NCBI GenBank assembly: GCA_002699185.1
Contig: PABG01000070.1
Location: forward strand, 1 to 35,188
DNA length: 35,188 nt
Source: Gammaproteobacteria bacterium
GTDB lineage: Bacteria > Pseudomonadota > Gammaproteobacteria > Thiohalobacterales > Thiohalobacteraceae
Direction: 5' to 3'
Shown: positions 17,987-23,112 of the stretch, one piece after another
How the letters are laid out: each line of letters begins with the position of its first letter
Numbering within the stretch: the first letter of the stretch is position 1
Program-made: the position numbers and the translations under genes
Notes under the pieces: model-generated
Told to the model about the DNA's origin: nothing
The model's input: only the letters and a program-made list of their open reading frames with translations
The model's database searches: none

Positions 17987-19350
17987 TTGCCATGGCGCTG
18001 TCCGAAGCCGCGCAGGCCGTGCGCGGTCGGCTGCAGGGCGCGGATGCGCGCTTCGCCGGCCTGAGCACCGACAGCCGCGGCCTGGAGCGCGGCAACCTGT
18101 TCGTGGCGCTGGCGGGCGAACGTTTCGACGGTCACGACTATCTCGATCAGGCCGCGGCCGGCGGTGCTGCGGGCGCACTGGTCAGTACCGCGGTGACGGA
18201 CCTGCTGCCCTGCATCCGGGTGACCGATACCCGGCTGGCGCTGGGTGGCCTGGCCGCGGCCTGGCGCGCGCGTTTCGATATCCCGCTGGTGGCGGTCACC
18301 GGCAGCAATGGCAAGACCACGGTCAAGGAGATGCTGGCCGCCATCCTGGGCATGGAGCACCAGGTGCTGGCCACCCGCGGCAACCTGAACAACGACATCG
18401 GCGTGCCCCTGACCCTGGGTCGGCTGGGCGCCGTGCATACGGCCGCTGTGATCGAGATGGGCGCCAACCATCCGGGCGAGATCGCTTACCTCACCGGTCT
18501 GGCCCGGCCGACGGTTGCGCTTATCACCAATGCCGGACCCGCCCACCTGGAGGGATTCGGCAGCCTGGAAGGCGTGGCGCGGGCCAAGGCCGAGATCTAT
18601 GACGGGCTGGGTCCCGATGGCCTGGCCGTGGTCAACCGCGACGATGCCTTCGCCGACTACTGGCTGACGCGCCTGCAGGGCCGGCGGATCATGACCTTCG
18701 GGCTGGAGATGCAAGCCGATGTCAGCGCCGAAGTGTCGCCGCACGAATCGGGCCAGCGGCTGGTTCTGCGCACCCCGGCCGGCAGCATCGAGGTCGAACT
18801 GGCACTGCCGGGGCGGCACAACGCCATGAACGCCCTGGCCGCCGTCGCTGCTGCTCTGGGTGCGGGCGCCTCGCTGGCGGCGGTGCAGTCCGGGCTGCAG
18901 AGCCTGCGCCCGGTCGGCGGCCGGCTGCAGATACACCGCTGCGCCGATGACATCGGTGTGATCGATGACACCTACAATGCCAATCCCGGTTCGGTGCAGG
19001 CCGCCCTGGCAGTGCTCGGGCAGCTGCCCGGCGAACACTGGCTGGTACTGGGCGACATGGGTGAACTGGGCGGCGAGAGCCGTCAGCTGCACCGGGAGAT
19101 CGGCGCCCGGGCGGCGGCCGCCGGCTGTGATCGGCTGTTCACCCTGGGAGGTGACGCCGCATCCGCCGCCGAGGCCTTCACCGGTCCGGCGGCTCATTAC
19201 GATGATTTCGAGTCCCTGCAGGCCGCACTCGAGGCGCAGCTGCATCCCGGGGTGCAGGTGCTGGTCAAGGGCTCGCGCAGCATGCGCATGGAACGGGTGG
19301 TGCAGGCCCTGCTGGCGCGGCTGCAGCCACGGCCGGGAGGGTGTCGCTGA
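17983..19350 (+). CDS. murF: UDP-MurNAc-tripeptide:D-Ala-D-Ala ligase
   Basis: Encodes 455 residues (452 in E. coli), the last cytoplasmic Mur ligase, adding D-Ala-D-Ala. [20 protein letters not shown] near the N-terminus and the ATP loop [15 protein letters not shown] (starting about 104) are clear. [29 protein letters not shown] and [15 protein letters not shown] are MurF-specific. ATG 17983 is chosen since it overlaps the murE stop as ATGA with GGGGGG before it; an earlier in-frame GTG at 17959 lies inside murE and is unlikely. Confidence 0.97.
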
Positions 19351-20432
19351 TGCTGCTGTGGCTGGCCGAATTCCTGACCCGGTATCACACCGGGTTCAAT
19401 GTATTTCAGTACCTGACGCTGCGCGCCATCCTGGGCGTGCTGACCGCGCTGCTGTTCTGCTTCGTCACCGGTCCCTGGATGATCCGGCGCCTGGGCCAGT
19501 ACCAGATCGGTCAGCAGGTGCGTGACGACGGTCCGCAGTCGCACCTGAGCAAGGCCGGTACGCCGACCATGGGCGGTGCCCTGATCCTGTTCGCCATCAG
19601 CTTCGCCACCCTGCTGTGGGCCGATCTCGGCAACCGTTATGTCTGGGTGGTGCTGCTGGGCACGCTCGCCTTCGGCGCCATCGGCTGGGTGGACGACTAC
19701 AAGAAGCTGGTGCTGAAGAATTCCCGCGGTCTGCCGGCGCGCTGGAAGTACTTCTGGCAGTCGCTGTTCGCGCTGATCATCGCCGCGGTGCTCTATTACA
19801 CCGCCCAGGCGCCGATCGAGACCCAGTTGATCGTGCCCTTCTTCAAAGGGGTCGCCATCGAGCTGGGGGCGTTGTACTTCGTGCTGGTCTATTTCGTCGT
19901 GGTCGGTTCCAGCAACGCCGTGAATCTCACCGACGGGCTGGACGGCCTGGCTATCCTGCCGACGGTGATGATCGCCGGGGCGCTCGCCGTGTTCGCCTAC
20001 GCCACCGGCAATGTGCGTTTCGCCGAATACCTCGGCATTCCCTACGTGCGCGACGTGGGCGAGATCATCATCTTCGCCGGCGCCATCGTCGGCGCCGGGC
20101 TGGGCTTTCTCTGGTACAACGCCTATCCCGCCCAGGTATTCATGGGCGATGTGGGCGCCCTGGCACTGGGTGCCGCGCTGGGCCTGATGGCGGTGCTGGT
20201 GCGTCAGGAACTGGTCTACCTGGTCATGGCGGGCGTGTTCGTGATGGAGACCGTCTCCGTCATCCTGCAGGTGGCTTCGTTCAAGCTCACCGGGCGGCGC
20301 ATCTTCCGCATGGCGCCGCTGCACCACCATTTCGAACTGAAGGGATGGCCCGAGCCGCGCGTGATCGTGCGCTTCTGGATCGTGACCGTGATCCTGGTCC
20401 TGATCGGGCTGGCCACGCTGAAGATCCGTTGA
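19350..20432 (+). CDS. mraY: Phospho-MurNAc-pentapeptide transferase
   Basis: Encodes 360 residues, exactly the E. coli length. MraY is an integral membrane enzyme of 10 helices that forms lipid I from UDP-MurNAc-pentapeptide and undecaprenyl phosphate. TPTMGG, the catalytic aspartates D115-D116 in GWVDDYKK, and [10 protein letters not shown] (D195, D198) are present, with PLHHHFE near the C-terminus. ATG 19350 gives [19 protein letters not shown], matching E. coli; a GTG at 19341 is less likely. The start overlaps the murF stop (TGATG) and GGGAGGG lies upstream. Confidence 0.97.
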
Positions 20433-20443
20433 GGGGGAAGGGG

Positions 20444-20518
20444 ATGGATTTACGCATACAGATGAAGATCGTGGGCCTGACCTTTCTGTTGATGTCCCTG
20501 TTGTGGCTGGTTCTGTGA
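20444..20518 (+). CDS. Candidate 24-residue membrane microprotein between mraY and murD
   Basis: A 24-codon ORF, MDLRIQMKIVG then TFLLMSLLWLVL, ending TGA. It starts 12 bases after the mraY stop, behind a very purine-rich GAGGGGGAAGGGG, which is a good ribosome-binding site. The N-terminus carries R4 and K8, followed by about 16 continuous hydrophobic residues. The expected product is one membrane helix with its N-terminus in the cytoplasm. It fills a gap of about 100 bases in a cluster whose other Mur and Fts genes mostly overlap. No known family is recognised. It could instead be a leader peptide controlling murD translation. Confidence 0.45.
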   Translation: MDLRIQMKIVGLTFLLMSLLWLVL

Positions 20519-20527
20519 CGCGAACGG

Positions 20528-21895
20528 GTGATGACGCTGGCGCTGATGACAATGGATGCTGAACGGGTGATGGCAGGTAAGGTACTGGTGGTCGGCTGCG
20601 GCCGCACCGGGCTGTCCTGCGCACGTTACCTGGCGCGCCAGGGCCGCCAGGTGGCGGTGACCGACTCCCGGTCCGAACCGCCCTGCCTGCAGGCCATGCA
20701 CGAGGAGCTGCCGGACGTGGCCCTGTTCCTCGGCGGCTTCGATGCCGACGCCTTTGCCCATGCCGGGCAGATCGTGGTCAGCCCCGGCGTGCCGCTGTCG
20801 CATCCACTGATCGCGCAAGCGCGCAGCCGCGGCGTGGAAGTCATCGGCGACATCGAGCTGTTCGCCCGGGCGGCACAGGCGCCGGTGATCGCCATCACCG
20901 GTTCCAATGGCAAGAGTACGGTGACCACCCTGGTGCATGAAATGGCGCGCGCCGCCGGTCGCCGGGTGCGGGCCGGCGCCAACCTGGGCACGCCGGCGCT
21001 GGACCTGATCGAGGATCCGGAGCCGGACCTGTACGTGCTCGAGTTGTCCAGTTTTCAGCTCGAATCGGTCGACAGTCTCGCACCCGCGGCCGCGGCGGTG
21101 CTGAACATCAGCCCCGATCACCTGGACCGCTATTCGGGCCTGGATGCCTATGCCGCCGCCAAGGCCCGGATCTACCGCAACGCCGGCGTGCAGGTGGTGA
21201 ACCTGGATGACCCGGTGGCCTGCTCCCTGGCCGACGTCAACCGGCCGCGGTTGGGATTCACGCTGGACGTGCCGGGGCCGGATGACTTCGGCCTGCGCGA
21301 GCGCGACGGCCGGCTGTGGCTGTGTCGGGGCGGGGAAGGCTGGCTGGCGGCCGACGAATTGAAACTGGTCGGCCGCCACAACCTGGCCAACGCCCTGGCC
21401 GCACTGGCGCTGGGCGCGGCCATCGATCTGCCGCGGGCTGCCATGCTGGAGGCGCTGTGCGGCTTCGGCGGTCTGGCGCACCGCACCCAGTGGGTGGGCG
21501 GGCGCGACGGCGTGGACTGGTACAACGATTCCAAGGCCACCAATATCGGCGCCACCCTGGCGGCCATCGCCGGCTTCGACCGGCCGCTGGTGCTGATCGC
21601 CGGCGGCCAGGGCAAGGGGGCGGACTTCAGTCTGCTGCATCCGGTGTTGTGCCAGCGTGCCCGCGCCGTGGTGCTGCTGGGCGAGGCCGCCGGCGAGATC
21701 GAGACCGCGCTGGACGGTTGCGTGCCGGTGCGCCGGGTCGAGTCCATGGAGGCGGCCGTGGCCGCCGCAGCCGAACTGGCGCGGCCGGGCGACGCCGTAC
21801 TGCTGTCACCGGCCTGTGCCAGCCAGGACATGTTCGTTGACTACCAGGACCGGGGCGAGCGCTTCAGCGCCGCGGTGCGGGAGCGGCTGCAATGA
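20528..21895 (+). CDS. murD: UDP-MurNAc-L-Ala:D-glutamate ligase
   Basis: Encodes up to 455 residues (438 in E. coli), the Mur ligase that adds D-Glu. The nucleotide-sugar-binding motif VLVVGCGRTGLSCARYL is followed by the ATP loop ITGSNGKSTVTTLVHE (GSNGKST about 125–131). LELSSFQLE, NISPDHLDRY and the C-terminal WYNDSKATN are MurD signatures. The start is unsettled among GTG 20528, ATG 20531, ATG 20552 and ATG 20570; the last gives MAGKVLVVG and fits family alignment. The 12-bp word GAACGGGTGATG occurs at 20522 and again at 20561, so the extra N-terminus may be a duplication. Confidence 0.95.
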   Translation: MMTLALMTMDAERVMAGKVLVVGCGRTGLSCARYLARQGRQVAVTDSRSEPPCLQAMHEELPDVALFLGGFDADAFAHAGQIVVSPGVPLSHPLIAQARSRGVEVIGDIELFARAAQAPVIAITGSNGKSTVTTLVHEMARAAGRRVRAGANLGTPALDLIEDPEPDLYVLELSSFQLESVDSLAPAAAAVLNISPDHLDRYSGLDAYAAAKARIYRNAGVQVVNLDDPVACSLADVNRPRLGFTLDVPGPDDFGLRERDGRLWLCRGGEGWLAADELKLVGRHNLANALAALALGAAIDLPRAAMLEALCGFGGLAHRTQWVGGRDGVDWYNDSKATNIGATLAAIAGFDRPLVLIAGGQGKGADFSLLHPVLCQRARAVVLLGEAAGEIETALDGCVPVRRVESMEAAVAAAAELARPGDAVLLSPACASQDMFVDYQDRGERFSAAVRERLQ

Positions 21896-23112
21896 GCGCG
21901 CTGCTCGCACGCCTGGGCTGGCTGCACAACGGGCAGGGGCTGCGCTGTCCGCGCCTGGATCCGGGCCTGCTGCTGGTGACCGCGGCACTCATGGGGCTGG
22001 GCCTGGTGATGGTGGCCTCGGCCTCCATCACCCCGGCCGACCGGGAGTTGCAGCAGCCCTTCTATTATGTGCTGCGCCAGTCCGCCTACATGGGGGTGGG
22101 GCTGCTCGCCGCCGCGGCCGCTTTCGGCATCCGTTTGAGTCTGTGGTCGCGCTTCGGGATGATCGCCCTGTTCCTGGCCCTGGGGCTGCTGGTGCTGGTG
22201 CTCATCCCCGGCGTGGGCAAGACGGTCAACGGCAGCACCCGCTGGATCGGGGTCGGGCCGGTCAATCTGCAGGTTTCCGAACCGGCCAAGCTCCTGGTGC
22301 TGATCTATCTCGCCAGTTATCTGGTGCGCCGGGCCGAGGAGGTGCGTGAGCAGTTCAGCGGCTTCTTCAAACCCATGCTGATGCTGGGCCTGGTGGCCAC
22401 GCTGCTGCTGGCTCAGCCGGACTTCGGCGCCATGGTGGTGCTGGTGGTCACGGCCCTGACCATGATGTTCCTGGCCGGAGTGCGGCTGTGGCAGTTCGGT
22501 GCCCTGGTGGCCCTGGCCGGCGGGGCGTTCGCCCTGCTGGCGGTGTCCTCGCCCTACCGCATGGCGCGCCTGACCGCCTTCCTCGACCCCTTCGCCGATC
22601 CCTTCAACAGCGGCTACCAGCTGACCCAGTCGCTGATCGCCATCGGCCGTGGTGAGTGGTTCGGCGTCGGCCTGGGCGCGAGCGTACAGAAACTGTTCTA
22701 CCTGCCCGAAGCCCACACCGACTTCCTGTTCGCCATCCTGGCCGAGGAACTGGGCATGTTCGGCGTGCTGCTGGTGCTGGCCGGCTTCGCCTTCCTGGTC
22801 TGGCGCGCCTTCGCCATCGCCGCCGTGGCGCAGCGGGCCGACGAACCGTTCGCCGCCTATCTCGCCTATGGCATCGGTACCCTGATCGGCCTGCAGGCCC
22901 TGATCAACATGGGCGTGAACATGGGGCTGCTCCCGACCAAGGGCCTGACCCTGCCCCTGATGAGCTACGGCGGCAGCAGTCTGCTGGTGATGTGCGTGGC
23001 CATCGGTCTGCTGCTGCGCATCGACTACGAGACCCGCTGTTCGGTGCACAACATCAACAATGACCGCCGCCGGCCGCGCCGGCGCGGCACGGGCCGGGAG
23101 CGACGCGCATGA
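21892..23112 (+). CDS. ftsW: Septal peptidoglycan glycosyltransferase FtsW
   Basis: Encodes 406 residues (414 in E. coli), a SEDS-family membrane protein of about 10 helices that polymerises lipid II at the septum with FtsI. GSTRWIGVGPVNLQVSEPAK contains the conserved loop after helix 3. QPDFGAMVVL, the segment GYQLTQSLIAIGRGEWFGVG and HTDFLFAILAEELGMFG lead to the C-terminal GLTLPLMSYGGSSLL. The tail is strongly basic. The start overlaps the murD stop as ATGA, and its own stop overlaps the murG start. Confidence 0.97.
   Translation: MSALLARLGWLHNGQGLRCPRLDPGLLLVTAALMGLGLVMVASASITPADRELQQPFYYVLRQSAYMGVGLLAAAAAFGIRLSLWSRFGMIALFLALGLLVLVLIPGVGKTVNGSTRWIGVGPVNLQVSEPAKLLVLIYLASYLVRRAEEVREQFSGFFKPMLMLGLVATLLLAQPDFGAMVVLVVTALTMMFLAGVRLWQFGALVALAGGAFALLAVSSPYRMARLTAFLDPFADPFNSGYQLTQSLIAIGRGEWFGVGLGASVQKLFYLPEAHTDFLFAILAEELGMFGVLLVLAGFAFLVWRAFAIAAVAQRADEPFAAYLAYGIGTLIGLQALINMGVNMGLLPTKGLTLPLMSYGGSSLLVMCVAIGLLLRIDYETRCSVHNINNDRRRPRRRGTGRERRA

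Follow-up and report, generated by a model that had tools for sequence, protein, structure and literature searches.

A lineage-specific, predicted single-span membrane microprotein encoded between mraY and murD in the dcw cluster of two gammaproteobacterial orders

CydX is encoded with or near its membrane partner. Together with AcrZ and MgtU it belongs to a set of very small single-helix proteins that each bind a large membrane protein, the partners being cytochrome bd for CydX, AcrB for AcrZ and MgtB for MgtU (passages of PMC6005532 and PMC10710835). Peptides of comparable build also act on septal wall synthesis. According to passages of PMC4211646, SidA (29 aa), which binds FtsW, and DidA (71 aa) of Caulobacter are single-span proteins that are induced by DNA damage and target FtsW or FtsN. 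MraY itself is a target, near helix 9 and Phe288, of a small membrane protein from phage phiX174, the lysis protein E, as described in parts of PMC11812184 and, for the YES complex, of PMC10914600.

The 24-residue microprotein described here is likened to SidA and protein E by description and not by sequence. As for SidA and DidA, a single membrane span is predicted, but the gene lies in the interval that separates mraY from murD; and whereas protein E is a phage inhibitor that kills its host, the microprotein is the product of a stable host gene. It shares with CydX, MgtU and AcrZ a very small size, one hydrophobic helix and the lack of a catalytic part, and differs from them in being located in the dcw cluster, where none of these three is known to be encoded; nor is any of them known to act on MraY.

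The DNA analysed (the window, 35,188 nucleotides) comes from a draft genome of 139 contigs, 79% complete, in which it is contig C70. The genes are arranged in the order ftsI-murE-murF-mraY-[peptide]-murD-ftsW-murG-murC-murB, with identities checked in relatives, and for MraY against the PDB; some of the gene names in the window are presumed from the known order of the dcw cluster. Coordinates are collected in Table 1. The microprotein ORF is complete, with 24 codons between the ATG at 20444–20446 and the TGA at 20516–20518 and the product MDLRIQMKIVGLTFLLMSLLWLVL, exactly as placed by the initial annotation. The stop codon of mraY (TGA, 20430–20432) lies 11 nt to the 5′ side. In an alignment with MraY of PDB entry 8g01, the mraY start at ATG 19350 falls on residue 1; GTG 19341 is also a possible start. 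MurD has an N-terminal extension ahead of its usual start, in the window (20528–20580) as well as in relatives from the sister order discussed below, where a recurring pattern is seen that starts ML/MQ-A and has a second M before RTL.

Table 1. Features at the mraY–murD junction of the window and in the adjoining genes
Feature	Coordinates	Strand	Basis or remark
mraY	19350..20432	+	phmmer against PDB 8g01_A with E 3.2e-149; residues 4-363 of the query on 1-360
Purine-rich leader / Shine-Dalgarno region of the microprotein	20430..20443	+	TGAGGGGGAAGGGG; overlaps the mraY stop codon
24-aa single-span membrane microprotein gene	20444..20518	+	same-gap homologues in 30 genomes; pN/pS 0.31
Short spacer to murD, weak SD	20519..20530	+	earliest murD starts GTG 20528, ATG 20531
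murD	20531..21895	+	start uncertain: GTG 20528 or ATG 20531, 20546, 20552, 20570
ftsW	21892..23112	+	nearest other membrane-protein gene downstream

A MraY search of 95 relatives gave 89 matches, the best 30 of which were taken as loci; a further 80 loci came from a MraY search in named genomes, and the mraY–murD gaps of all 110 loci were read. A short hydrophobic ORF is present in 11 of the 110 gaps, and all 11, the window included, belong to one family, while the other 99 gaps, outside the family, contain no comparable hydrophobic short ORF. The mraY gene is in two pieces or interrupted by an in-frame stop in five drafts (G011:C23, G066:C9, G053:C2, G031:C71 and G073:C164), which may reflect either assembly errors or real breaks. 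With a profile built from ten members, the microprotein was found in 10 of the 11 genomes of the window's taxonomic family, which makes up its whole order in the collection, and in all 20 genomes of a sister order, that of G090. All 18 sister-order genomes held out of the profile matched with E ≤ 4.2e-5, and G010, likewise outside profile building, matched at E 3.7e-13. An independent positional scan that takes the mraY stop as its origin picks up each of the 30 members plus L035, a repeat of G390 that was dropped from later counts. Taken together, the two orders have the microprotein in the mraY–murD gap of 30 of 31 genomes.

Outside the two orders, the microprotein is absent from everything examined. 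In a sample of the class, 7 of 369 genomes are true members, and the other 10 matches at E ≤ 0.1 are partial, score 22.1 bits or less and mostly fall within longer frames; the partial matches in G037, G057 and G067 are on contigs other than those that carry mraY. Relatives of G090 include 21 true members among 186 genomes, plus 6 weak partial matches, and the single true member among 398 genomes of a phylum sample is the window itself. The one genome from the order of G093 and the two from that of G094 lack the microprotein, samples so small that they carry little weight.

The only membrane-protein gene that adjoins the microprotein is mraY. The presence of ftsW in the same cluster, two genes further downstream, and the SidA/DidA precedent in passages of PMC4211646 would be in keeping with a divisome peptide that, in the manner of SidA, has FtsW (or FtsI or FtsN) and not MraY as its target. 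We regard such a role as distinctly unlikely, since the microprotein is fixed on the mraY side of murD in 30 of 30 genomes, and since SidA and DidA inhibit division and are induced by damage, in contrast to a gene that sits within a housekeeping cluster.

Several properties of the ORF are those of a protein-coding gene. The start codon is ATG in all 30 members, the product has 24 residues in 24 of them, 25 in five and 27 in one, and the stop codon (TGA in 20, TAA in 6, TAG in 4) is found at nearly one position, with no internal indels across the set. Gln6 is invariant (30/30), and Val10 (29), Phe14 (28), Asp2 and Thr13 (27 each) are nearly so. In 15 disjoint pairs, some of them distant and partly saturated, pN/pS is 0.31 in frame compared with 0.98 and 2.59 in the other two frames, on the basis of 104.3 synonymous and 95.7 nonsynonymous changes. 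The pooled value is 0.28 in the sister order, and the signal is weaker in the window's own family, at 0.63. That so short an ORF, preceded by a purine-rich leader of a common kind, arose by chance in a long gap is scarcely credible, and this explanation was rejected: the ORF is conserved in two orders, evolves in a protein-like manner and has no counterpart in the other 99 gaps. The shared position in 30 of 31 genomes, the pattern of codon evolution and the lack of such ORFs in the other gaps make it more than a chance ORF. The ORF is under protein-level selection and is always placed directly after mraY.

The first six to eight residues or so form a polar head that carries between zero and three charges, and a hydrophobic run follows. 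There are no charged residues beyond position 8 in any of the 30 sequences, and the two basic residues ahead of a hydrophobic stretch that were pointed out in the initial annotation are Arg4 and Lys8 in the window's copy. The best 17-residue hydropathy mean is 2.05–3.28 across the 30 members, sufficient for one short span, and lengths of 24–27 residues are well within the size range of single-span membrane microproteins (less than about 50 residues, one hydrophobic helix). Conservation is distributed with helical periodicity, as judged from the moment at 100 degrees (shuffle p 0.002–0.013 in the sister order and 0.001–0.015 for all members), with no significant periodicity among the nine sequences of the window's own family (p 0.10–0.51). 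This periodicity suggests that one face of the helix packs on something. The initial proposal of a real membrane microprotein is strongly supported: pN/pS is low in frame, and sister species conserve the hydrophobic stretch as well as the start codon and the leader, so that the comparison named at the outset as the one that could refute the proposal did not do so.

Searches for known families gave no convincing match in Pfam (best E 0.021) or PHROGs (best E 0.022), no peptide match in the PDB up to E 10 and no NCBIfam match above cut-off. The NCBIfam model for MgtR (NF033229), a 30-aa membrane peptide with a different gene context, matches one of 27 members, the window's copy, over residues 8–24 with 17.7 bits (cut-off 35) and E 0.0025. 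In the literature searched, mostly that outside subscription journals, no description of a small mraY–murD ORF was found. Distant partners are common among membrane microproteins, and together with the weak MgtR match of the window's copy, this allows for a reading in which the partner is another one (a protease, a transporter or a lipid) and the gene is placed here only for co-expression with growth. Against this stands the finding that no full-length member occurs away from the mraY–murD gap in any genome searched, and we consider the idea fairly unlikely. The evidence as a whole identifies a genuine microprotein, restricted to these lineages and apparently undescribed, with a single predicted membrane span and a gene that is built into the dcw cluster.

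The leader of the window's copy forms a duplex with the anti-Shine-Dalgarno sequence of −11.1 kcal/mol, in agreement with the strong purine-rich ribosome-binding site assigned initially. For the family as a whole this assignment must be toned down, as the leaders only moderately outperform their own shuffles: mean pairing is −8.74 compared with −6.54 after shuffling, and 24% of the shuffled leaders pair at least as well as the real mean. Because shuffled leaders already attain −6.54, pairing strength derives mainly from purine content. A 4-nt SD core is found in 29 of the 30 leaders, and the leader of G390 is without an SD-like sequence. The ATG of the microprotein is 7–27 nt past the mraY stop in the 30 members, with a leader that overlaps or abuts this stop; the SD motif begins inside the mraY stop codon in six leaders by a strict pattern, or seven by a loose one.

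On the other side of the microprotein, the first murD start follows its stop at a median distance of 12.5 nt with a weak SD (mean −3.45), and the distance from the microprotein stop to the MurD motif is 52 to 115 nt across the family. In the window, the murD starts at GTG 20528 and ATG 20531 are 9 and 12 nt past the stop, with SD values of −1.1 and −3.8, respectively. The microprotein leaders and the close murD starts with weak SD make termination–reinitiation from mraY via the peptide to murD plausible, and it is possible that translation of the microprotein sets murD expression, although such a role does not explain why the peptide is conserved. If the ORF were mainly a translation-coupling element that hands ribosomes on from the end of mraY to the beginning of murD, with a peptide that itself does little, the proximity of murD and the contrast between its SD and that of the microprotein (−3.45 versus −8.74) would be accounted for. 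There would, however, be no need to retain Gln6, Val10 and Phe14 in 28 to 30 of 30 members or to hold pN/pS at 0.31, and relatives without the microprotein mostly have a short mraY–murD gap, so that we judge this alternative decidedly improbable. Nor is there a conserved RNA structure: in an alignment of 16 of the 20 sister-order sequences, the consensus fold is −2.14 kcal/mol with a covariation term of −0.14 and double changes in 2 of 10 pairs, and an RNA element was rejected. A near-perfect 14-bp inverted repeat (GTACGAACATGCAC / GTGCATGTTCGTAC) is located between the microprotein and murD in L132 (G390) and L035, and because of it, their spacer is the longest in the family.

On a quick MraY tree (127 rows; support is low at many of the deep forks; members L116 and L133, which have no full MraY, were left out), the presence of the microprotein requires two changes. 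We read these as one gain before the split of the two orders and one loss in G007, a member of the window's family and the only one in the clade to lack the peptide. Named neighbours in this tree place the two orders in Gammaproteobacteria. G007 gave no match up to E 10, its distance from mraY to the MurD motif is 57 nt, and it retains an ordinary mraY. Its MraY has 6 private changes among 189 invariant columns, the most of any sequence (0–4 in the others), and 4 of the 6 are within residues 288–322 near helix 9 (p 0.004, for a region picked post hoc). Most of the new residues occur in non-carriers too, and murD of G007 has private changes in like number (9). In an unbiased scan, the excess near helix 9 is unexceptional, with rank 12 of 29 in the clade and 19 of 126 overall, and for this reason the changes in G007 are not counted as evidence; co-change of MraY upon loss of the peptide looked suggestive at first, but is not supported by the scan. 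In a different protein, FtsW of G005 (L165), 17 private changes occur at otherwise invariant columns, far above any other sequence, and possibly result from a frameshift.

With respect to the partner of the peptide, the gene order, the overlap of the ribosome-binding region with the mraY stop and the hydrophobic helix speak for MraY as the most likely candidate. Based on the position of the gene, the membrane nature of its product and the conserved face, we propose, with about even confidence, that the product is an inner-membrane microprotein of 24 residues that is made in step with MraY and uses its conserved face to pack on MraY and to stabilise or tune the enzyme. Ribosomes that finish mraY would initiate on the microprotein at once, and by passing directly from one to the other they would produce the peptide in step with MraY and allow its insertion beside the enzyme as it is made. 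The conserved face (Asp2, Gln6, Val10, Thr13/Phe14 and Ile17) would then pack on MraY, and the packed helix may stabilise the enzyme or tune its activity, as AcrZ, CydX and MgtU do for their partners. The peptide is dispensable for catalysis as such, since related lineages run MraY without it. A more specific and rather doubtful possibility is that MraY has in it a first peptide partner of cellular origin, a stoichiometric helix placed in a lipid-facing groove (such as helix 9 or the dimer cavity) that would set lipid II supply in the two orders.

Few bacterial gene clusters are as well studied or as conserved as the dcw cluster, and its gene set is generally regarded as settled. The microprotein is a conserved extra membrane gene within this cluster, smaller than annotation normally calls. 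How precursor supply is controlled at the MraY step is still unsettled, with feedback by flipped lipid II among the proposals (passages of PMC10914600). For a cellular regulator, whether of MraY or of the divisome, the microprotein is a concrete candidate.
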